A stretch of 64,000 nucleotides of DNA from Metallumcola ferriviriculae. GTDB taxonomy: Bacteria; Bacillota; JADQBR01. The notes below the pieces were generated by a model. The model saw nothing but the letters and a program-made list of their open reading frames with translations, did no database searches and was not told the origin of the DNA. The stretch spans positions 1 to 64,000 of the forward strand of contig NZ_CP121694.1 of the NCBI RefSeq assembly GCF_035573695.1, given 5' to 3'. A program made the translations under genes and the position numbers. Positions 6,224-44,398 of this stretch are shown piece after piece; positions within the stretch are counted from its first letter, which is position 1, and each line of letters starts with the position of its first letter.

Positions 6224-6335
6224 GTAACTTCACTCCTTCATGTAACAATCAAAAAGCGTATACGTATCCCGCAGCGTAATAAACCTTATCAAGCGTAATT
6301 ATACGACTTTTCGAAAGTTAGAATTGGTCAAAGCT

Positions 6336-6472
6336 CAAATACCCTTTGTGCCCGAAATTACTTCCGGGTTTTGTGGTACCTGTTAACGACCTGCTTTAAG
6401 GCCGAGGGGCATCCGCCGAAAGTTCGATAAAACCCCTTCCTCGTCAACCGCATAGTGCGGCTCAGGCGCTTT
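6336..6472 (-). ncRNA. glmS ribozyme (glucosamine-6-phosphate-activated)
   Basis: Read on the minus strand, AGCGCCTGAGCCGCAC starts at 6471. It is followed by GGTTGACGAGG, then TTTATCGA, then CGGCGGATGCCCC. These are the conserved cleavage-site, P2.1/P2.2 and P2 blocks of glmS ribozymes in the right order. A 3' part follows in which GGUACC pairs with GGUAUU around a CCCG/CGGG hairpin (P4/P4.1). Cleavage is expected just 5' of the AGCGCC block. It lies directly upstream of glmS. The 3' boundary is approximate. Confidence 0.93.
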
Positions 6473-6545
6473 TCAACCGGAGCAGCAAATCAATTATACC
6501 CTCCTCATCTCTCACCTCCCCTTAAGAATATCCTTAACTAATTAA

Positions 6546-26284: not shown

Positions 26285-27886
26285 TTAAGCGTGGGTGGCT
26301 GCCGAAGCGGACTTCGCTGTTTCTTTCTGTTGTTTCAACAATGCATAGTCCATGCTGTCCAACAGCGCCTGCCAGCTGGCCTCAATAATATTTTGGGATA
26401 CGCCTACGGTGCTCCATGAATTATGGGCATCGCGCGACTCGATTAATACCCTTACCTTGGCACCGGTACCGTCTTTTTCGTCTAACACCCGCACTTTATA
26501 GTCAGTAAGATGCATCTCCTTAATTACCGGATAAAATTCTTCCAATGCCTTTCTTAAGGCATTATCCAAGGCATTTACCGGACCGTTGCCTTCCGCTGCA
26601 GTATGCACCACCTGGTCCTCTACCTTTAGTTTAATCACTGCTTCTGATAAAATATCTTCATTGGTCCGTTTTTCCATCATTATTTTAAATGATTCCAACT
26701 GAAAAAGTTCACGGTATTGGTTTGTGGCTTTTTTAATCTGAAGTTCCAATGATGCTTCCGCACCTTCAAATTGATAACCCTGGTACTCCATCTCCTTAAT
26801 ATGCCTAATCAGGTCCCGCGAAACTTCCTTTTCTGCCAGATTATCTATCTTTAATTCTTCAGATTTAAACAGTAAGTTACTAGCTCCACTTAACTCAGAT
26901 ACCAATACCCGGCGTTGATTGCCCACTCGTTCGGGTTCAATGTGCTCATAAGTCTTGCTATCCTTTAATACAGCACTGACATGTATACCGCCCTTATGAG
27001 CAAAGGAACTTTTACCAACAAATGCCTGGTTATGTGGTACTGTGGTGTTTGCTATTTCACTTATATAGCGCGAAGATTCCGTGAGCCGCTCCAGATGGCC
27101 GGTGGGCAGGCAGTGTTTGCCCATCTTAGTCTCCAGATTGGCTACCACCGAACAAATATTGGCGTTACCGCAGCGTTCACCCAACCCGTTGATGGTACCT
27201 TGCACCATTACAGCTCCGGATTTCACCGCTGCCAAGGTGTTGGCCACTGCCATTTCCCCATCATTATGAGCATGAATACCCAGAGGGATCTCCACTGTCT
27301 CTTTGACACAGCTGACTGCAGCAGCAATCTCATCAGGCATGGACCCGCCATTAGTGTCGCATAAAGCAAGCCAGTCTGCGCCGCCTGCCGCCGCTGCCCT
27401 AATTGTCTCCATGGCATATTCCCAGTTAGCCTTGTAGGCATCGAAAAAATGCTCTGCATCATAGATGACCTCAAGACCGTTTTCCTTAAAGTAAGCCACG
27501 GTCTCTCCAATCATGGCAAGGTTCTCTTCCAGAGTGGTTCCCAGTGCTTTCAGTACATGAAGGTCCCAACTCTTGCCAAAGAGGGCAACCGTTTTGACAC
27601 CGCTCTCCATAACTGCCTGGATATTTGTGTCAGCAGCTACTGCCGTATTGGGGCGGCGGGTACTGGTAAAGGCGGTCAGTTTTGCATGACAAGGGCTTAA
27701 TTCCCGAGCACGGCGGAAAAACTCCAAATCCTTTGGATTAGAACCTGGCCAGCCCCCTTCAATATAATCTACGCCAAGGTATTCAAGCTTCTGGGCAATT
27801 TTCAGTTTATCCTGGACCGTAAGGCTAATGCCCTCGCCCTGCGCTCCATCCCTCAATGTGGTATCAAATACATATACTTTAGCCAT
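26285..27886 (-). CDS. cimA: (R)-citramalate synthase
   Basis: Condenses pyruvate and acetyl-CoA to citramalate, opening the threonine-independent route to 2-oxobutyrate and isoleucine. The protein is 533 aa. The HMGL-like barrel starts [16 protein letters not shown], and GIHAHNDGEMAVANTLAAV holds the metal-binding histidines. A C-terminal LeuA-type regulatory domain lies from about 400. DYIEGGWPGSNPKD distinguishes this longer CimA type from LeuA. The ribosome binding site is GAGGTGA. LeuCD and LeuB upstream can process citramalate further, so the cluster could make isoleucine from pyruvate. Confidence 0.94.
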   Translation of the reverse strand: MAKVYVFDTTLRDGAQGEGISLTVQDKLKIAQKLEYLGVDYIEGGWPGSNPKDLEFFRRARELSPCHAKLTAFTSTRRPNTAVAADTNIQAVMESGVKTVALFGKSWDLHVLKALGTTLEENLAMIGETVAYFKENGLEVIYDAEHFFDAYKANWEYAMETIRAAAAGGADWLALCDTNGGSMPDEIAAAVSCVKETVEIPLGIHAHNDGEMAVANTLAAVKSGAVMVQGTINGLGERCGNANICSVVANLETKMGKHCLPTGHLERLTESSRYISEIANTTVPHNQAFVGKSSFAHKGGIHVSAVLKDSKTYEHIEPERVGNQRRVLVSELSGASNLLFKSEELKIDNLAEKEVSRDLIRHIKEMEYQGYQFEGAEASLELQIKKATNQYRELFQLESFKIMMEKRTNEDILSEAVIKLKVEDQVVHTAAEGNGPVNALDNALRKALEEFYPVIKEMHLTDYKVRVLDEKDGTGAKVRVLIESRDAHNSWSTVGVSQNIIEASWQALLDSMDYALLKQQKETAKSASAATHA

Positions 27887-27961: not shown

Positions 27962-29056
27962 CTACAATTGCTCTCGCACCAGGGCGCCCATTTCTGTTGT
28001 TCCTATCTGCTTGGCACCTGGTGTCATTATATCGCCGGTTCTGTATCCCGCATTTAACACTCGTTCCACTGCATTACGGATGGAATCAGCAGCAGTGGTC
28101 ATATTAAAGGTTAGCTCCAGCATCATCGCCACGGATAAAATCGTAGCCAAGGGATTTGCCAAACCCTTGCCGGCTATGTCCGGTGCCGAGCCATGGGCCG
28201 GTTCGTAAAGAGCAACCTCACCACCGACACTGGCTGAAGGCAGCATACCGATGGAACCGCTGAGCATAGACGCCTGGTCGGTAAGAATGTCGCCAAACAT
28301 ATTCTCCGTTACTATTACATCAAACTGTTTTGGATCGCGCACCAACTGCATGGCACAGTTATCCACGTACATACTTTCCAAATTAATATCAGGGTTATCG
28401 GCAGCCATCCTTTGGGCTGTCTCCCGCCACAGACGAGAACTCTCCAAGACATTGGCCTTATCCACCGACATCACTTTGCCCGAGCGCTTTCTTGCCGTTT
28501 CAAACGCCAATTTTAGAATGCGCTCAATTTCAGGCGTAGTATAGACCAAAGTGTCTACTGCCTTCTCCCCCATTTCCACCTCTTCACCTGAGAGGGATGT
28601 AACGGTGTACGCCTCTCTAAATTTCTCACCAAAGTAGAGGCCGCCGGTAAGCTCACGAATTACCACCATGTCTGTTCCGACAACTATTTCCTTTTTCAGT
28701 GCGGAAGCGTCTACCAGTGCCGGATATAAAAAACATGGGCGAATGTTGGCATAAAGCCCAAGTCCCTTACGCAGTGCAAGTAACGCAGCCACTTCCGGCC
28801 GCTGGGCCGCAGGAAGGGTATCCCACTTGGGGCCTCCCACAGCTCCTAAAAGCACTGCATCACTCTGCCGGCACATGGCTAACGTCTCATCCGGCAGGGA
28901 CTTACCTACAGCATCAATGGCCGCACCACCAATCAGTCCTTCTTGCAATTGTAAGTCCAAGCCATGCTTAGCAGCGACCTTTTCTAACACCTTTACCGCT
29001 TCAGGCACAATCTCCTGCCCGATACCATCACCCGGCAGCACCAGTATTTTAGCCAT
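27962..29056 (-). CDS. leuB: 3-isopropylmalate dehydrogenase
   Basis: An NAD-dependent oxidative decarboxylase of leucine synthesis, 364 aa. [20 protein letters not shown] is the N-terminal start. [12 protein letters not shown] holds the substrate-binding Arg/Tyr, [17 protein letters not shown] holds the metal-binding Asp residues, and [13 protein letters not shown] is the NAD loop. It overlaps the end of leuD by 8 bases and is translationally coupled. Confidence 0.97.
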
Positions 29057-29549
29057 TTTGCTTCACCTTTTTCTCTACATATTTCATCAGTCCGCCCTGA
29101 TCAATTAATTCCTGCATAAATTCCGGGAATGGAACCGCCTGATAGGTTTTACCGCTGGTCAAGTTCTTTATTCTTCCCGATGACGCATCAATCTCTACCC
29201 GATCTCCCTCTCCTATATCTCGAGCTGCTTCATCACACTCAAAAATGGGCAGGCCAATATTAATAGCGTTACGATAAAAAATCCGGGCAAAGGACGGTGC
29301 GATTATACAAGACACCTTGGCCGCCTTAATCGCAATAGGTGCGTGTTCTCTTGAACTGCCACAGCCAAAGTTTTTGCCTGCTACGATAACATCACCGTCT
29401 TGTGCCTTTTTCGCAAACTCTGGATCAGCGTCCTCCATGCAGTGCTTTGCCAAATCCTCAGGGTCGGATGTATTTAGATACCGCGCCGGGATAATGGCAT
29501 CGGTGTCAACATCATTACCAAACTTCCAAACGTTACCTACAAATTGCAC
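29049..29549 (-). CDS. leuD: 3-isopropylmalate dehydratase small subunit
   Basis: The swivel subunit of isopropylmalate isomerase, 166 aa. [20 protein letters not shown] and [17 protein letters not shown] are the family signatures. The start is GTG at 29549, sharing its G with the leuC stop (TAGTG) and preceded by GAGGAGG at 7 bases. The longer frame upstream of this lies inside leuC. Confidence 0.96.
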
Positions 29550-30811
29550 TACAGCACCTCCTCGGGAGCAGCAATATAGCCACATACTGCACTGGCAGCC
29601 GCAACTGCCGGGCCGGACAGGTAGACTTCACTTTCCGGATGGCCCATCCTGCCGACGAAATTTCTATTAGTAGTAGCCAAGGCACGCTCGCCTTTGGCCA
29701 AAATACCCATATAGCCACCCAGACAAGGTCCACAAGTCGGGGTGCTTACTGCCGCGTTGGCCTGAATAAAGGTGTCAATCAATCCTTCCGCCATAGCCTG
29801 ACGGTAGATTTCCTGGGTGCCGGGAATAACAATTACGCGGATATCCCGGTGTACCTTCTTCCCTTTAAGCAGTTTTGCCGCCTGCCGCAGATCCTCCAGA
29901 CGACCGTTAGTACAGGACCCGATTATCACCTGGTCAATCTTCACATCGCCGACTTTGCTGATGGGACGCGTGTTCTCAGGCAGGTGCGGAAAAGCCACCA
30001 CCGGCTCCAGCGCGGATATGTCGTACTCAATTACTCGGGCATAAGCTGCATCGGGGTCACTCTGATAAAGTTCGTAATCGCGCTTAGCCCGGCGTTTTAC
30101 ATAATCCACAGTTTTGTCATCGGGTGGTATGATACCATTTTTCCCGCCGGCTTCTATGGCCATATTCGCCATAGTCATACGCCCCTCCATTGAGAGGTTA
30201 TCAATCGCTTCGCCTGTAAACTCCATGGCCATATAGCGCGCTCCGTCCACCCCTATATCGCCAATGGCGTGTAAAATCAAGTCCTTGCCTCCTACCCATG
30301 GCTGAAGTTGACCGTTAAAGACAAACTTAATAGTCTCCGGTACTTTAAACCAAGTCTCACCGGTAGCCATGGCTGCAGCCATATCGGTACTGCCTACGCC
30401 TGTGGCAAAAGCACCAACAGCACCATATGTACATGTATGCGAGTCCGCACCAATTATCACATCGCCGGGCAGTACCAAACCCTGCTCAGGCAGCAGACAG
30501 TGCTCAATACCCATACGACCCACTTCAAAGTAGTTGACGATCCCTTGTTTCCTGGCAAACTCCCTCAGCATTTTGGCCTGCTCTGCGGATTGAATGTCTT
30601 TGTTGGGTACGAAATGGTCCGGTACCAACACTACCCGTTCCGGGTCGAAAACCTTTTCTACCCCCAGTTTCTCAAATTCTTTAATGGCAACCGGGGCAGT
30701 AATGTCGTTGCCCAGAACCACGTCCACCCGGGCACTAATCAATTCACCGGGCTGGGTTTTTTCAAGGCCCGCATGGCGAGCCAGTATCTTTTCGGTAATT
30801 GTCATCCCCAT
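29549..30811 (-). CDS. leuC: 3-isopropylmalate dehydratase large subunit
   Basis: The aconitase-type [4Fe-4S] subunit, 420 aa, of the short homoaconitase-like class paired with a separate LeuD. The cluster cysteines lie in [14 protein letters not shown] and [10 protein letters not shown], and [20 protein letters not shown] is the substrate region. The ATG at 30811 has GAGGAGG 7 bases upstream, so the extra 16 residues of the open frame are not used. It probably also acts on citramalate made by CimA. Confidence 0.96.
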
Positions 30812-30888
30812 GGTTTTTCCTCCTCTGCTCCATATCGGGAACACAGACGGCAAAAACACGCCGTCTGCATCACCCTATTTTAGAAAAG

Positions 30889-32424
30889 TTATACGATCCG
30901 TTGTAGGTCATCTTCGCCTACTTCAAAGACTAATTTGTTTAACGCATTGATATAGGCCTTGGCACTGGCTTCAATGATATCAGTACTAATGCCCCGACCG
31001 ATGTAAACTTGGTCAGCGTATTTCAGCTTAGCAGTCACTTCACCGATGGCATCCTTACCGCCGGTAACCGCACTTAAATTATAATACATCAAGGAAACTT
31101 TAATGTTGGTCACCTTGTCAATGGCTTTAAATACCGCATCCACCGGTCCTTCACCACATGCTGCTTCTTCTATCAATGTTTCACCATCTGTGATACCCAC
31201 TGTAGCTGTGGGAACAATACGGTTGCCCGAGGATATGTGCATATGTTCCAGTTGAAATTTCTCCGGAATACGGCGAATTTCCGCCTCCACAATGGCCTCT
31301 ATATCCTTGTCGCTAATTTCCTTTTTTCTATCTGCCATACTCTTAAACCGGGTAAAAGCTTTATCCAGCTCTGTCTTATCCACTTCAAAACCTAATTCTT
31401 CCAGCCGCTGCCGGAAAGCATGACGTCCTGAATGTTTGCCTAAGACGATGTTATTCTGCACCAGACCAATCATTTCCGGGTTCATAATCTCGTAAGTGGT
31501 ACGTTCTTTTAATACTCCGTCTTGATGAATGCCGGACTCATGAGCAAATGCATTGCGGCCGACAATTGCCTTATTTGATTGAATGCTCATCCCTGTCAAG
31601 CTGCTTACCTGCTTACTTGTACGATAAATTTCCTTAGTATTAATTTCCGTATGATAGTCATAGAAGTCCTTACGGGTGTAAAGGGCCATCACCATTTCTT
31701 CTAAAGCGGTATTACCGGCCCTTTCACCGATTCCGTTTACCGCACATTCTACCTGCTGGGCGCCATTGGCAATGGCCGCCAGGGAATTTGCCACCGCGAG
31801 ACCTAGGTCATTATGGCAGTGCACACTTAAAATAGTACGATCAATGTTGGAAACTTTACGTCTTATTGCCGCAATAAATTGCCCGAACTCTTCCGGAGTG
31901 GCATATCCTACAGTGTCAGGGATGTTAACCGTAGTGGCACCGGCATCAATCGCTGCCTCAACCACTTGGCAGAGAAAGTCCAAGTCGCTGCGTGAAGCAT
32001 CTTCCGGAGAAAACTCCACATCGTCGGTATACTGTCTGGCGTGTTTGACCCCTTTTACCGCCAGCTCTAATACTGTTTCCCGAGGCAGCTGAAGCTTATA
32101 CTTCATGTGAATATCTGAAGTAGCAATAAAGGTATGAATACGGGGTTTTTTTGCGACTTTCACAGCTTCCCAAGCCCGGTCGATATCCTGGGGGTCAATA
32201 CGGGCCAGGGCCGCGATTGTAGGACCCTCCACATTTTCAGCGATAGTTCGCACCGCCTGAAAATCGCCCTCTGAAGCGATAGGAAAACCCGCTTCAATTA
32301 TATCCACACCTAATCTGGCCAGTTGCGTAGCAATCTCCAGCTTTTCGTTAATATTTAAACTAACACCGGGAGATTGCTCTCCATCTCGCAGGGTAGTATC
32401 AAAGATATAAACTCGCTTACTCAC
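30889..32424 (-). CDS. leuA: 2-isopropylmalate synthase
   Basis: Condenses 2-oxoisovalerate with acetyl-CoA, the committed leucine step. The protein is 511 aa. The barrel starts [38 protein letters not shown] holds the metal histidines, and a C-terminal leucine-binding regulatory domain covers about 390-511. I place the start at GTG 32424, 6 bases after GAGGAGG. The frame is open for 30 more codons, but those overlap ilvB2. It overlaps the ilvB2 end by 8 bases, so the two are coupled. Confidence 0.95.
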
Positions 32425-34108
32425 AATCATCCTCCTCCCCGAATGGAAACTGTACCATTTCATCCAGTCCCCTGGCATTAGGTACCATGGGTAATACCAG
32501 CTCTCGCTGATCAACGATCACCTCAATGATGGTCAGGCGGCCGTTATTTACCGCCTCGGTGAGAATCGGTTCCACCTGGTCCTTCGTTTCTATCTTTAAG
32601 CCCACAGCATCGTAGCACCGGGCCAGGTTGACAAAGTCAGGGTTGCCGGTAAAATCAACCGCGGTATAGCGCCGGTCACAGTAGAAATGCTGCAGCTGAC
32701 GCACCAATCCCAAACTGCTGTTATTAAACAGCAAAACCTTGATGGGTAGGTTTTGTTCCCGCGCTGTAGCCAATTCCGCCATACTCATCTGAAAACTGCC
32801 GTCCCCGGTTACTGAAATTACCAAAGCGTCAGGGTCGGCCATCTGTGCCCCAATGGCCGCAGGAAAACCATAGCCCATAGTTCCCAAACCACCGGATGTC
32901 AAGAAAGACCGCGGTCGGGCAAAACGATAAAACTGTGCCGCCCACATTTGATGTTGACCTACATCGGTGGTAACTATTGCCCGATTATTTGTGATTTCGC
33001 CTAATTTTTGCATTACGTATTGAGGACGAAGCTTACTGTCATTGCCGTATTGAAGCGGATGCTCCCGGCGCAATTCCTTAATTCTCTCCAACCATTCCGG
33101 GTGTTTCTTCTCCTCTAATTTTTCCAGCATCCCAGTAAGAACCAGACGAAGGTCCCCAACAATTGGCACGTCCACTGACACATTCTTACCGATTTCCGCC
33201 GGGTCAATATCCAGGTGAATAATCTTTGCCTTCGGGGCAAACTTTTCCACCGCACTAGTAACTCGGTCGTCAAAGCGTACACCAAGACCAATAAGCAGAT
33301 CTGCTTCCGTTACCGCGTAGTTGGCTACAGGAGTACCGTGCAGACCCAACATGCCCAATGACAGTTCACTGTCCTCGGGAAAGCTGCCCAACCCCATCAA
33401 TGTGGTAGTCACGGGGATGTGCGCTCGGCGGGCCAACTCCAATAATTCTTCAGTGGAACCGGAGTTTATCACCCCGCCGCCCACATAAATTACCGGCCTC
33501 TTCGCCTGTTTGATCAAGGCTAAGGCACGGTTTATCTGCTGAGGGTGTCCTTGATAATTGGGCTTATATCCTCTCATGTCTAATTGCTCCAATGGTTTTG
33601 CAGAACAAAGTGCTGCAGCTACATCCTTTGGGATGTCTATCAGAACCGGTCCGGGGCGGCCGGTACGGGCAATATGGAATGCTTCTTTCATTACCTTAGG
33701 CAATTCATCTGCCTTTTTTACCAGATAATTGTGTTTGGTAATGGGCATGGTTATCCCGGTAATATCCACTTCCTGAAACGCATCGGTACCAACCATGCTG
33801 GTAGCCACCTGCCCGGTGATAATCACCACCGGCACTGAATCCATATATGCTGTGGCAATCCCTGTCACTAGATTAGTCGCTCCCGGCCCTGAAGTGGCCA
33901 TACAAACCCCGGGGTTACCGGTCACACGGGCATAACCGTTAGCCATGTGTACTGCTGCCTGCTCGTTTCGCACCAAAACATGCTTGATGTCTGAATCCAA
34001 TAAGGCATCGTATATAGGCAGCACTGCCCCGCCAGGGTAACCATAAATAGTAGTAACATTCTCATCCTGAAGGCATTTAATTAGTCTTTGTGCTCCTGTA
34101 GTCCCAAT
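32417..34108 (-). CDS. ilvB: Acetolactate synthase large subunit, second copy; possible ATT start
   Basis: A TPP enzyme of 563 aa if begun at 34108. Homology to IlvB starts at [16 protein letters not shown] and includes [31 protein letters not shown] (catalytic Glu), and the TPP motif TGDGSFQMS with LFNNSSLG. The first ATG/GTG/TTG in this frame is the GTG at 34024, which would remove the conserved GYPGGA segment. The only start well placed after the GGAGGT site (34118-34123) is an ATT at 34108, 9 bases away. An ATT start, a poorly expressed short form, or a sequence error are the options. It follows ilvN by 23 bases. An alternative role as an enzyme for 2-aceto-2-hydroxybutyrate is possible. 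Confidence 0.88.
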
Positions 34109-34131: not shown

Positions 34132-34629
34132 TTATCCTTGGCCATTTTTAAATTTGGCTCCACGTACCATGGCAATCTTACCGGTACGTACTACTTCGCG
34201 AAGACCAAAAGGTCTTAAGGAAGTCTCAATAGCACTGATTTTACCAGAATCCCCTGTTGCTTCAATAATTAATGAATCCCGGCCAATATCCACAATCCGT
34301 GCCCTAAATATATCAACTATCTGCATGATTTCCGCTCGGGTATTGGGGTCAGCGTTTACCTTAACCAGCACTAACTCCCGATCTACAAACTGATCCTGGG
34401 TAATGTCACTGAGTTTAATAACCTCAACCAGCTTATGCAGTTGTTTGGTCACCTGCTCAATCACTCGGTCATCGCCGTCTACTACAATTGTTATACGGGA
34501 TATTTCCGGATCTTCAGTATGACCAACGGCCAAACTTTCAATGTTATAGCCCCTGCGGGCAAATAAACCGGCAATTCTGGTCAAAACACCGGGTCTGTTC
34601 TCTACCAGTACAGCCAACGTGTGTTTCAC
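34132..34629 (-). CDS. ilvN: Acetolactate synthase small (regulatory) subunit
   Basis: The ACT-domain regulatory subunit of acetolactate synthase, 165 aa. The N-terminal ACT domain [20 protein letters not shown] binds valine for feedback inhibition. A second ferredoxin-like domain follows ([19 protein letters not shown]). It overlaps the end of the upstream ilvB by 4 bases and precedes the second ilvB, so it lies between two catalytic subunits and could serve both. Confidence 0.96.
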
Positions 34630-36338
34630 CTTTTGCCACCCCCCAGCATCTTATTGATCGCGCCCCCTGCGGGCACCATGGGGAAAACATTTTCTTCTTC
34701 ATCTACGATAAACTCAATTACGAAGGTACCGGGAGCAGCCATGGCACGCTCCAGCGCCGGTCTTACATCTTCGGGGCGCTCTACCCGCATTCCTTGGGCG
34801 CCATAGGCCTCTGCCAATTTAACAAAGTCCGGTCCGCCTTCCATGTGGGTATAAGAATACCTCCGGTCATAAAATAGTTCCTGCCATTGTCGTACCATTC
34901 CTAAATAGTGATTATTCAGGATAGCCACCTTTATTGGCAATCCGTATTGTACTGCAGTGGCAAACTCCTGAGAATTCATCTGGATGCTGCCGTCCCCGGC
35001 AATGTTAAAGACTACTGAATCCGGATGGGCTAATTGAACTCCTATGGCGGCGGGAAGCCCAAAACCCATGGTCCCCAAACCACCAGAAGAGATAAATCTC
35101 CGTGGATACTTGCACTGATAAAATTGCGCCGCCCACATTTGGTTTTGGCCCACTTCCGTCGCTATAAACGCTTCCCCACGGGTAATATCGCAAATTTGTT
35201 CTACCACATATTGAGGTTTTATCACTTCATTGTCCTGATCATAATTCAAAGGATGATTCCGCCGCCACTGTTCAACTTTGTCTAACCATGCTTGGTGCTG
35301 CCGCGGTTCCACTTCTTTGAGCAAATCCGCGAGAACTTCTCGGACATTGCCTACTAATGGAATATCAGCCCGGATGTTTTTACTAATTTCCGCGGGATCA
35401 ATGTCCACATGAATGATGGTAGCGTTGGGAGCAAACATATCAAGACGCCCGGTTACTCTATCATCAAAACGAACTCCTAAGCCAATTACCAGGTCACTAT
35501 CGGTAATGGCGTAGTTGGCATACGCTGTCCCATGCATGCCGGGCATACCCAATGCCAACGGGTGTACATCAGGGAACGCACCCTTGCCCATTAATGTAGT
35601 AGTAACCGGTGCATTTATCTTCTCTGCAAATGCAATCAGTTCCTCATGAGCACCGGCAGCAATGATACCGCCTCCGGCATAAATTACCGGCCTTTCCGCC
35701 TGATTAACAGCCTTTACTGCCTGAGTTAAGTTAGCTGTAATTCCATTATAAATATATTTATATCCGGGAAGGTTTACCTCCGGCGGATAAATAAACTCGG
35801 TCTCCGCGGCAGCAATATCCTTAGGCAGGTCAACTACCACAGGACCAGGCCTACCGGTAGTGGCAATATGAAAAGCTTCCCGCATTATCCTAGCCAAATC
35901 CTTTACATCCTTTACCAGGTAACTGTATTTGGTAATCGGCTGGGTAATACCGGTAATATCCGCCTCCTGAAAGGAGTCCTTGCCGATTAAGCCGCTGGCT
36001 ACCTGCCCGGTAATGGCCACCAATGGTACAGAGTCCATATAGGCATTGGCAATACCGGTAACTAAATTGGTTGCACCAGGTCCCGATGTCGCAAAGACCA
36101 CGCCGCATTTCCCTGTAGCCCGGGCGTAACCATCTGCTGCATGCACTGCGCCCTGCTCATGACGGGTTAGGATGTGTTTGATTTCTTCTTCTCCGTATAA
36201 TGCATCATATAAAGATAAAACTGCACCGCCGGGGTAGCCGAAGATTACTTCTACTCCCTCGGCTTTTAATGATTCAACAACAATTTGTGCTCCATTTAAA
36301 GTTCTCACTACCGAATCCCCAATTTCTGCCACCTCCAT
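34626..36338 (-). CDS. ilvB: Acetolactate synthase large subunit, first copy
   Basis: The catalytic TPP/FAD enzyme of branched-chain synthesis, 570 aa. Key parts are [35 protein letters not shown] with the catalytic Glu, and the TPP motif [10 protein letters not shown] with ILNNHYLG. The ATG at 36338 overlaps the ilvD stop (TAATG) but has no clear ribosome binding site. Translation may rely on coupling, or may begin at GTG 36308 just before [10 protein letters not shown], where family homology starts. It is strongly similar to the second copy downstream, indicating duplication. Confidence 0.95.
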
Positions 36339-37999
36339 TATTTTTCAAATACCGCACCGGTACTGGCCGATGTCACCAATTTAGCATAGCGAGCCATATA
36401 TCCGGATTTAATTTTTGGTTCTGGTTTTTGCCAATTACGGCGCCTTCCTTCTAATTCCTCTTCCTCTACCAACAGTTTGATGCTGTTGTTTGGTATATCT
36501 ATTGCAATAGTATCTCCCTCTTCTACCAAGGCGATAGGTCCGCCTTCAGCCGCTTCGGGAGAAATATGGCCAATGGATGCTCCTCTGGTAGCACCGGAAA
36601 ACCGTCCATCGGTAATCAGGGCTACCGATTCGCCTAATCCCATACCGGCCACGGCAGAGGTGGGGGTAAGCATCTCCCGCATACCGGGGCCGCCTTTTGG
36701 CCCTTCATAACGAATCACAATTACGTCACCTGGTTTAATTTCTTTGGCCCAAATAGCTTTTACCGTTTCTTCTTCAGAATTAAAAACTCTGGCCGGGCCC
36801 TGATGGGTAAGCATTTTGTCGGCAACAGCAGCTTTTTTCACCACGGCACCATCCGGGGCCAAATTGCCCCAAAGAACCGCCAACCCACCGCTTTTACTAT
36901 AAGCCTTATCAAAAGAACGGATAACAGTATTATCCTTATTAGAAGCAGCGGCTACAGTTTCGGCCACCGTACCGCCGGTAACGGTAATCAATTGACTGTT
37001 GATAAGCCCTAAATCATCTAATTGTTTCATAACCGCAGGAATACCGCCGGCCTGGTCAAGATCTTCCAAATGGTGCTCACCGGCAGGACTGAGTTTACAT
37101 AGGTGTGGTGTCTTGGCGCTGATTTCATTAACCTTTTCCAAACTTAACTCAATACCCGCCTCGTGGGCAATGGCGGGAAGATGCAAAATAGTATTTGTGG
37201 AACATCCCATAGCCATATCTACGGTGAGAGCATTTTCAAAAGCCTGTTCAGTCAAGATATCTAGGGGCTTAATGTCCCCTTCCAGCATCCTCATGATTTG
37301 CATACCTGCCTGCTTGGCCAATCGTTTCCTTGCCGCATGTACCGCGGGTACAGTACCGTTACCCGGTAATCCCAAGCCCAGTGCTTCCGTGAGACAGTTC
37401 ATGGAATTAGCAGTAAACATACCTGAACAAGAACCGCAGCCGGGGCAGGAATTGTTCTCCACGTCCTCCAATTGTTCACGGGTAATTTTACCTGCTTCAT
37501 ACTCTCCCACTGCCTCAAACACTTGGTTTAAATCCATATCTTTATTATTCAGTCGTCCTACCAGCATGGGCCCGCCACTGATAAATACAGTAGGTACATT
37601 AATTCTGGCGGCAGCCATCAACATACCCGGTACTACTTTGTCGCAATTGGGTATAAATACCAAAGCGTCAAAGGCATGAGCCTGCGCCATAACTTCTGCA
37701 GAGTCAGCAATTAATTCCCGGCTGGCCAAGGAATACTTCATGCCTTCATGTCCCATAGCTAAGCCGTCACAGACGGCAATAGCCGGAAATTCAAGCGGCG
37801 TACCGCCGGCCATACGCACACCAGCCTTAACAGCATCTGCAATTTCACGCAGATGTATATGGCCGGGTACCACCTCGTTGAAAGAATTTACCACACCCAC
37901 TAACGGGCGATTTATTTCCTCATTGGTAAGCCCAGTGGACTTCAGCAGGGACCGATGTGGTGCGCGATTGATGCCGTCTTTCATTAGTTTGCTTTTCAT
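36338..37999 (-). CDS. ilvD: Dihydroxy-acid dehydratase
   Basis: An Fe-S dehydratase that makes 2-oxoisovalerate and 2-oxo-3-methylvalerate, 553 aa. [17 protein letters not shown] and [18 protein letters not shown] hold the cluster and active-site residues, and [20 protein letters not shown] is the conserved C-terminal block. I prefer ATG 37999, preceded by GGGAGTGAT, over an ATG 15 bases upstream without a site. It is the second gene of the operon, 27 bases after ilvE. Confidence 0.96.
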
Positions 38000-38026
38000 T
38001 AATATCACTCCCATCTGCTGTTTTTA

Positions 38027-38902
38027 TTAATAGATAGGGGGACCATCCAATTTTGTGAGCTCACGAAAATCTGCTATAAGGTTTCTAGTCATTTCCCCGG
38101 GCTGTCCATCGCCTATCGCCCGGCCATCTACCTTAACTACCGGAATAACTTCTGCAGCTGTTCCGGTAAAGAAGCATTCATCAGCAATATAGATATCATG
38201 ACGAGTAAACACCTTCTCACTGACCTTTATGCCTCTTTTCTCAGCCAGCTCCATCACCGAATTACGGGTAATCCCTTCCAAGATGCCTACGAAAGGCGGC
38301 GGAGTAATCAGCTCTCCATTTTTAACTATAAAGATATTATCTCCAGTTGCTTCTGCTACATATCCTTCATTATTAAGCATGATGGCTTCGGGAGAATTAG
38401 TCATGGTTGCTTCAATCTTAGCCATGATATTGTTCAAGTAGTTTAAGGACTTTACTCTGGGATTCATGGCTTCGGGCACATTACGCCGTGTAGCCACAGT
38501 GACAACCTCCAGCCCCTTTTCATATAACTCCTCAGGATAAAGGCGAATACCTGCAGCAATGCAAAATACCAACGAATTAGGGCACTTTCTCGGGTCAAGA
38601 CCCAGGTCGCCCTTACCACGGGTAACTACTAAACGAATGTAACCATCCCGCAGGTCATTCTTTCGTAATGTCTCCAAAACAACTTCAGTCATTTCCTCAT
38701 GGGTCAATTCAATTTTCAGCTGAATAGTGCGCGCAGACTCATACAACCGATCAATATGCTCTTTAAGTTTGAATACACGACCGTGATAAGCCCTAATGCC
38801 TTCAAAAACACCGTCTCCATAAAGTAATCCGTGATCAAACACCGAAACCTTCGCTGCTTCCTCCTGCACATAGCTACCATCAAAATAAATTACTAATCCC
38901 AT
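38027..38902 (-). CDS. ilvE: Branched-chain amino acid aminotransferase
   Basis: A fold-type IV PLP transaminase, the last step to Val, Leu and Ile, 291 aa. The PLP lysine lies in PRVKSLNYLNNIMAKIEA, and EATGDNIFIVKNGELITPP is the class signature. FDHGLLYGDGVFEGIRAYHG is the conserved N-terminal segment. It is the first gene of the operon, behind a leader of about 600 nt with a T-box and a ykkC-type riboswitch. The ribosome binding site is AAGGGGGA. Confidence 0.96.
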   Translation of the reverse strand: MGLVIYFDGSYVQEEAAKVSVFDHGLLYGDGVFEGIRAYHGRVFKLKEHIDRLYESARTIQLKIELTHEEMTEVVLETLRKNDLRDGYIRLVVTRGKGDLGLDPRKCPNSLVFCIAAGIRLYPEELYEKGLEVVTVATRRNVPEAMNPRVKSLNYLNNIMAKIEATMTNSPEAIMLNNEGYVAEATGDNIFIVKNGELITPPPFVGILEGITRNSVMELAEKRGIKVSEKVFTRHDIYIADECFFTGTAAEVIPVVKVDGRAIGDGQPGEMTRNLIADFRELTKLDGPPIY

Positions 38903-38983
38903 GAATATAATCCCCCTTTTTATACCCCCACTGCATCTTAAGCTATATCAGCATGACACAAAGGGTAAGTAGTTTAGAATAAA

Positions 38984-39125
38984 GTATAAAAATAGACCCA
39001 CAGATAAATCCCAGAGTGGAACCTATCCGCTGAGTCTTTTATCCCCACGGTGTAACATACCTAAAGTATGCCTGTACCGCTCGGTCCAGTCCGGCCACAG
39101 GCCGCGGAACCCTAGGTACACTTCC
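38984..39125 (-). promoter_or_regulatory. ykkC-family riboswitch, probably the ppGpp subtype, with its terminator
   Basis: On the minus strand GTACCTAGGGTTCCG (from about 39120), CTGGACCGAGCGGTACAGGC and ACACCGTGGGGATAAAAGAC appear in order, the conserved blocks of ykkC-type aptamers. The 3' end of the last block (GACTCAGCGGATA) can instead pair with TATCTGTGGGTC (38995-39036 overall), followed by TATTTTTATA, which forms a terminator that ligand binding would prevent. Members upstream of branched-chain amino acid genes belong to the ppGpp (2a) class. Guanidine and PRPP subtypes are less likely here but need the diagnostic nucleotides checked. Confidence 0.85.
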
Positions 39126-39195
39126 CTCTTTATTAACTTTGACTGTACCACACTAATCAACCTAAAATTTTTTCAGGGTATCTAACAAACTATAT

Positions 39196-39481
39196 AAAAA
39201 GGCCCTCTAATCCCATAAAATAGGGACGAGAGGACCCGCGTTACCACCCTGATTGCTGCTTTAAAAATGCAGCCTCTTAATCATGTGCCAGTGACACAGG
39301 ACGCTGTAACGGGCGTTCGCTTACCCGGCGGCCGCTTACTTTAGCAAAATCAAAGTCCAAGTACCTCATTTGGGCGGCGCAGCTTGGAAGGGATATTACT
39401 CAGTAAGTATAATGCCGGGCTTTCACCTAACCCCGGCTCTCTAATATCAGGGACTTACCCGCAACATGTCTTCCTCATTGC
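39196..39481 (-). promoter_or_regulatory. T-box leader, isoleucine-type specifier
   Basis: On the minus strand the leader has GAGGAAGAC (stem I base), AGAGAGCCGGGGTTAGGTGAA (AG bulge and GGTTGGTG-like loop), and the T-box AGGGTGGTAACGCGG (39236-39250). It ends in a terminator GGTCCTCTCGTCCC/GGGATTAGAGGGCC with TTTTT (39196-39233). Alignment to the usual specifier loop puts the codon at AUC in GTAATATCCCTTCC, so uncharged tRNA-Ile is the likely signal. It controls ilvE and the genes downstream. Confidence 0.93.
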
Positions 39482-39508
39482 CTTTTCAAATTGTGTATTT
39501 TAAACATT

Positions 39509-39537
39509 AGTATACCCAAACACGCAGAGGGTGTCAA
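39509..39537 (-). promoter_or_regulatory. Sigma-A-type promoter of the ilv-leu operon
   Basis: TTGACA (39532-39537) and TATACT (39509-39514) on the minus strand are separated by exactly 17 bases and lie just upstream of the T-box. This is a near-consensus promoter. Confidence 0.9.
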
Positions 39538-39696
39538 GATTAATTTTCGTTAAAATTGATACGAGCAGAAATGTGTAAATCCAGGGCCGGACGCAGATTT
39601 TAATCAAAGCTGAGTCGTCTCAGCAGACGATACATATTAGCCGCCATGACTGGAATACTAACTACAAAACAATTTTTATGAAAGGAGAGATTACTA

Positions 39697-44105: not shown

Positions 44106-44203
44106 TAAGTATCCCTCCGAGGTTTATCCTGCCCACTATTGATAACAATATCTATAAATGATATAGTGAAGGGGAAAAAATAACCATAACTCAACTGACT
44201 TTG

Positions 44204-44398
44204 TTAGGTGAGGCTCCTGTGTGGAAACAGGCCACTGCCCGGAAACGTCGAGAGACGCCAATGGGTACAACAGGTACTACCGGATTAAGGTTTTACCTAA
44301 TGTGGCTGGGTTATCCCCTACGCTATACAGTGTCAAAGCTCAACAAGTGAAGCAGGTTTATTTATTGTGCCTTTCACTTGCCGTGAAGGGTTTTTTTG
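44204..44398 (+). promoter_or_regulatory. M-box (ykoK) Mg2+ riboswitch with terminator
   Basis: GTTAGGTGAGGCTCCTGTGT begins a leader that continues CACTGCCCGGAAACGTCGAG, AGACGCCAATGGGT, ACAACAGG and GCTATACAGTGTCAAAGCTC. These are the conserved M-box blocks in order. It ends in CCTTTCAC/GTGAAGGG plus TTTTTTT (44369-44396), a terminator just before mgtE. High Mg2+ should favour termination. Confidence 0.95.

Follow-up and report, generated by a model that had tools for sequence, protein, structure and literature searches.

The operon for branched-chain amino acid (BCAA) synthesis in Metallumcola ferriviriculae is preceded by a leader in which an isoleucine (Ile) T-box and a ppGpp-type ykkC aptamer follow one another and, in our assessment, most probably operate as a serial AND-like switch. 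The parts of the leader can be read directly in the window (the whole 64,000-nucleotide stretch analyzed, positions 1 to 64,000 of contig NZ_CP121694.1), and the binding, termination and logic assigned to them are predictions. Both signals are probably needed to activate the genes.

Architecture of the leader and its operon

The leader lies on the minus strand and begins at a sigma-70-type promoter (TTGACA-17 nt-TATACT, 39509–39537) that agrees with the consensus at 11 of 12 positions. Downstream follow the T-box, its terminator (terminator 1), a ykkC-fold aptamer after a gap of about 90 nt, a second terminator (terminator 2) and ilvE. A preliminary description of the sequence had proposed these same parts in this order, and all of them, including the consensus promoter, were recovered at the positions it gave. 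A scan of the minus strand from 38880 to 39640 found no promoter-like site other than the one at 39537–39509, and none between the two switches. The single promoter would drive a leader of ~600 nt in which two ON switches, independent of each other, are arranged serially. The same leader is present in both of the other genomes compared from the window’s class and in many Desulfotomaculia relatives, a recurrence which argues that it did not arise by chance.

An Rfam scan of the window matched the T-box family (RF00230) at 39219–39487 (minus strand) along all 219 model positions, with a score of 95.6 bits (cut-off, 93; E 1e-19). The antiterminator (39222–39250, minus strand), located from the RF00230 alignment and the sequence, contains the T-box sequence AGGGUGGUAACGCG with a UGGN bulge, whose UGGU (39246–39243) is a potential partner of the tRNA 3' ACCA. 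Terminator 1 (minus strand, about 39196–39237) overlaps the antiterminator and has a folding energy of -26.9 kcal/mol (z -4.2), which none of 200 shuffled sequences equaled. The T-box is therefore complete and has its own terminator, as had been claimed. The Rfam scan further identified an M-box (Mg2+) riboswitch (44193–44358, plus strand; 153 bits) before an MgtE-like gene and a glmS ribozyme (6326–6481, minus strand; 109.8 bits).

Terminator 2 (38988–39037, minus strand) is similarly stable (-24.5 kcal/mol, z -5.65), again with none of 200 shuffles matching it. Its 5' arm (39037–39017) consists almost entirely of aptamer sequence, namely the 3' strands of P3 and P0. Terminator-like hairpins occur at both sites in the 21 tandem loci that were folded, a few of the terminator 2 matches appearing misplaced. 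For a few relatives (L132, L215), the automated terminator finder chose poor hairpins as terminator 2, and these were not counted as counter-evidence.

Downstream of the leader, ilvE (38027–38902), coding for the branched-chain amino acid aminotransferase, heads a closely spaced run of ten ilv, leu and cimA genes on the minus strand. It is followed by ilvD (36338–38014), the large (ilvB, 34626–36338) and small (ilvN, 34132–34629) subunits of acetolactate synthase, a second large subunit (second ilvB, 32417–34024), leuA (30889–32514), leuC (29549–30859), leuD (29049–29585), leuB (27962–29056) and cimA (26285–27886). The latter codes for citramalate synthase, and its terminal position suggests a threonine-independent route of isoleucine synthesis in agreement with an Ile sensor. 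Between 32417 and 36338, one small subunit is flanked by two large subunits of acetolactate synthase, and ilvC is located outside the operon (G000:C1:2910339-2910830).

Predicted specificity of the two sensors

The T-box very likely detects uncharged tRNA-Ile, as predicted from the specifier codon AUC (39392–39394, minus strand), 6 nt upstream of AAG on the 3' strand of Stem I. The codon was read with the rule that it lies 6 nt upstream of the conserved GAG-like triplet in Stem I. To calibrate this register, we used nine T-boxes found upstream of aminoacyl-tRNA synthetase genes in this genome, the synthetases being identified with NCBIfam. The rule gave the correct codon in eight of the nine (serS UCC, valS GUC, pheS UUC, thrS ACC, metG AUG, alaS GCC, glyQ GGC and ileS AUC); the exception was tyrS, where UAC is read only with 5 nt. 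Furthermore, the specifier-loop sequence AAUAUC is identical in the ileS leader of the same genome, and AUC is also read in the ilvE-leader T-boxes of both other genomes of the class. These results uphold the Ile specificity proposed in the preliminary description. Besides the tyrS exception, two features count against this reading: the base 3' of the AUC is a C, where a purine is usual, and RNAfold predicts much of the specifier loop as closed. A C likewise follows the specifier in the serS leader of this genome. A tRNA-Ile(GAU) gene was not found among the tRNA loci retrieved or by pattern search, which does not establish its absence.

The ykkC-fold aptamer (39018–39127, minus strand) belongs to the ppGpp type (subtype 2a) according to published position rules and to its scores with two models, and very likely senses ppGpp. 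By the rules of PMC6031431, guanidine-I aptamers have an A at position 46/49, where a pyrimidine is found in both the ppGpp and the PRPP type. The PRPP type additionally has G96, where the ppGpp type has A, C, U or no base, and the change G96A alone turns a PRPP aptamer into a ppGpp aptamer. The window aptamer has a C at the equivalents of both C49 (39079) and C75 (39052). It also carries CUC-A-GCGG (39034–39027) as opposed to the PRPP-type pattern CCC-R-G-N-CGG, and has no G96. Its BCAA gene context agrees with the ppGpp type; the ppGpp and PRPP labels used throughout rest on the position rules together with gene context. The P0 stem is formed by GGGAAGUG and GGUUCC, both invariant, through GGAA/UUCC pairing 5' of P1 and 3' of P3, and eight base pairs in the aptamer hairpins show compensatory changes. 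The genome encodes a RelA/SpoT protein.

The two models were built from sequences partly picked by gene context: six sequences from outside the window’s class for the ppGpp type (five from tandem leaders that precede ilvE, the sixth from a permease leader) and eight from purine contexts for the PRPP type. The window aptamer scores 103.4 bits with the ppGpp-type model versus 71.5 with the PRPP-type model. Bits from different models are not strictly comparable, and a control is provided by a second ykkC element of the genome, which precedes an NCS2 purine permease and gave the reciprocal result (58.5 versus 95.2 bits). This second element (L032 1757-1865; G000:C1:3437756-3437864, minus strand) is of the PRPP type by both the model and its G96, and has a transposase-like gene immediately upstream. 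In a survey of 84 loci, which contains the training sequences and ignores kinship, the model difference assigned the BCAA contexts 23 versus 0 to the ppGpp over the PRPP type and the purine contexts 0 versus 24. Among the elements of this survey, 2 of 49 of the ppGpp type and 30 of 31 of the PRPP type show a G96-like pattern, 4 loci being ambiguous. Two loci (L157 and L186) are of the ppGpp type by score yet carry CCCAGGCGG, which is G96-like; they could be intermediates or misaligned.

Other identities for the sensors fit the data less well. A T-box that reads Leu, Ser or Tyr tRNA would agree with the label ‘T box Leu’ given to such tandems in PMC9481103, and a 5-nt register like that of tyrS would yield UCC; yet the specifier loop has no in-register Leu codon, and AUC is kept at the specifier in 16 genera and matches the ileS leader of the same genome, so we regard another tRNA as very improbable. 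Even less credible is a guanidine-I riboswitch, which would tie isoleucine starvation to guanidine, as PMC12452182 suggests for T-box/‘guanidine’ pairs upstream of BCAA operons. Indeed, Guanidine-I (RF00442) was the sole ykkC-fold family among the Rfam scan matches (57.5 bits, E 1.5e-9), but the score falls short of the family cut-off of 63 and the aptamer has a C and not the guanidine-I A at position 46 in guanidine numbering, the equivalent of 49 (PMC6031431). Furthermore, ykkC RNAs that precede BCAA or purine genes bind no guanidine (PMC7266159), and the guanidine-type elements L003 and L004, unlike the window aptamer, reach only ~30–40 bits with both subtype 2 models. Sensing of PRPP (subtype 2b) or of another nucleotide (subtype 2c) is slightly easier to entertain, since subtypes 2a and 2b are nearly alike and a single base change swaps the ligand (PMC6031431), but it too is improbable: the PRPP-type model scores 32 bits worse, the G96 that is missing here is present in purine-context elements of the same genome and class, and a C at the C75 equivalent is consistent with a guanine ligand. 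The guanidine-I and PRPP readings were dropped on the position rules and model scores. The preliminary description had assigned the aptamer to ppGpp unless it scored best as guanidine-I or PRPP; it does neither (57.5 and 71.5 bits, respectively), and the assignment stands as a predicted ligand class.

Predicted gate logic and known tandems

The order of the elements implies that RNA polymerase would reach the T-box first. Uncharged tRNA-Ile would pair through its anticodon with the AUC specifier and through its 3' end with UGGU, and its binding would stabilize the antiterminator and let the polymerase pass terminator 1. At the second switch, the ppGpp-bound aptamer would keep P0 and P3 together and deprive terminator 2 of its 5' arm. 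Only with both signals would ilvE-ilvD-ilvB-ilvN-ilvB'-leuACDB-cimA be fully expressed. This AND-like behavior follows from an anatomy in which one leader holds two elements, each with its own terminator, and lacks a promoter-like site between the two. The same anatomy supports the AND gate of the preliminary description as a predicted logic. A less strict arrangement, in which a leaky terminator or a second promoter lets either signal suffice or ppGpp merely tunes the T-box, is unlikely but deserves some weight, given that the gate logic is deduced and that natural gates have a graded output (PMC5912903). Against it, both hairpins are stable and have U tracts, and the scan did not find a promoter-like site between the switches.

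The tandem arrangement is already known. T-box/ppGpp tandems have been described as AND gates (PMC5912903, Fig. 6C; PMC6031431) with separate expression platforms (PMC6031431), and Table 2 of PMC9481103 has 16 T-box-first and 15 ppGpp-first tandems, all labeled ‘T box Leu’. T-box/‘guanidine’ pairs have also been reported before Bacillota BCAA genes (ilvE, ilvB, ilvD and others) and discussed as guanidine sensing (PMC12452182). These reports date from 2018 and 2022 for the T-box/ppGpp AND gates and from 2025 for the T-box/‘guanidine’ pairs before ilvE. Hence, the stacked arrangement that the preliminary description had read from the sequence is confirmed, though described earlier (PMC5912903, PMC9481103, PMC12452182). 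The window leader resembles the T-box/ppGpp AND gate in having both sensors in one leader, with their own terminators, before BCAA genes (PMC5912903, PMC9481103), but its T-box reads AUC (Ile), unlike the Leu-specific T-boxes tabulated in both orders in PMC9481103. It agrees with the leaders of PMC12452182 in both the pair of elements and the genes that follow, but its diagnostic bases indicate the ppGpp type, which suggests that leaders of this kind are mislabeled when annotated automatically as ‘guanidine’.

Two further systems provide useful comparisons. The ilvE ppGpp riboswitch of Desulfitobacterium hafniense, which has served as an in vivo reporter (PMC12373219), shares with the window aptamer the ykkC fold, the pyrimidine at 49, the lack of G96, the position before ilvE and a terminator overlapping the aptamer. 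The window aptamer differs in that it comes after a T-box and in that its ligand is a predicted one. The guanine/PRPP tandem, an IMPLY gate, likewise includes an aptamer of ykkC subtype 2 (PMC5912903), but in that tandem leader a single terminator serves both aptamers, with the second input overriding the first, whereas the window leader has two terminators in series. An Ile version of the T-box/ppGpp tandem is not named in the portions of the literature covered, a scope outside which lies the original description of the ppGpp riboswitch (PMC6003355). Only the Ile specifier and its tie to the order of the elements may be new.

Element order and specifier among relatives

T-box-first tandems were found in 17 genera (genus counts here derive from search handles), with ilvE downstream in every case in which the gene was readable, and the specifier is AUC in 16 of the 17, the window included. 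The carriers of AUC comprise the window, its two class relatives, relatives of Desulfofundulus, Desulfotruncus and Desulfoscipio, and a separate family (L132/L133); most of the set comes from one class and represents few independent origins. The exception is L033 (Clostridiales PH28_bin88), which reads GUC. The ppGpp-type aptamer behind this GUC (Val) T-box (L033 2155-2418) has a long insertion, with a match of 264 nt versus about 120. By contrast with the T-box-first order, CUC is the specifier of ppGpp-first tandems from five genera (L154, L157, L162, L164 and L226). Another ppGpp-first tandem (L149) reads GUC and is in the same genome as the CUC-reading L162; this genome (G273) has two ppGpp-first tandems, L149 before ilvE and L162 before ilvB. 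In addition, ilvE is preceded in L049, L051, L052 and L059 by a T-box that reads AUC but by no recognizable ykkC element, which suggests that the aptamer was gained or lost among relatives.

On balance, these patterns favor two tandem designs, one with the T-box (Ile) first in operons headed by ilvE and the other with ppGpp first and a T-box (Leu) in operons headed by ilvB or other genes. If so, the ‘T box Leu’ label would need correcting for the T-box-first order, and the same logic would take two different amino acids as its specific input. If the AND-like reading is true, the operon would fire only if a general starvation signal coincides with a specific signal from a tRNA. Uncharged tRNA is the source of both signals, and the leader makes the reason for sensing both testable. 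The Ile/Leu split by element order would offer a natural comparison for why cells sense the two signals.
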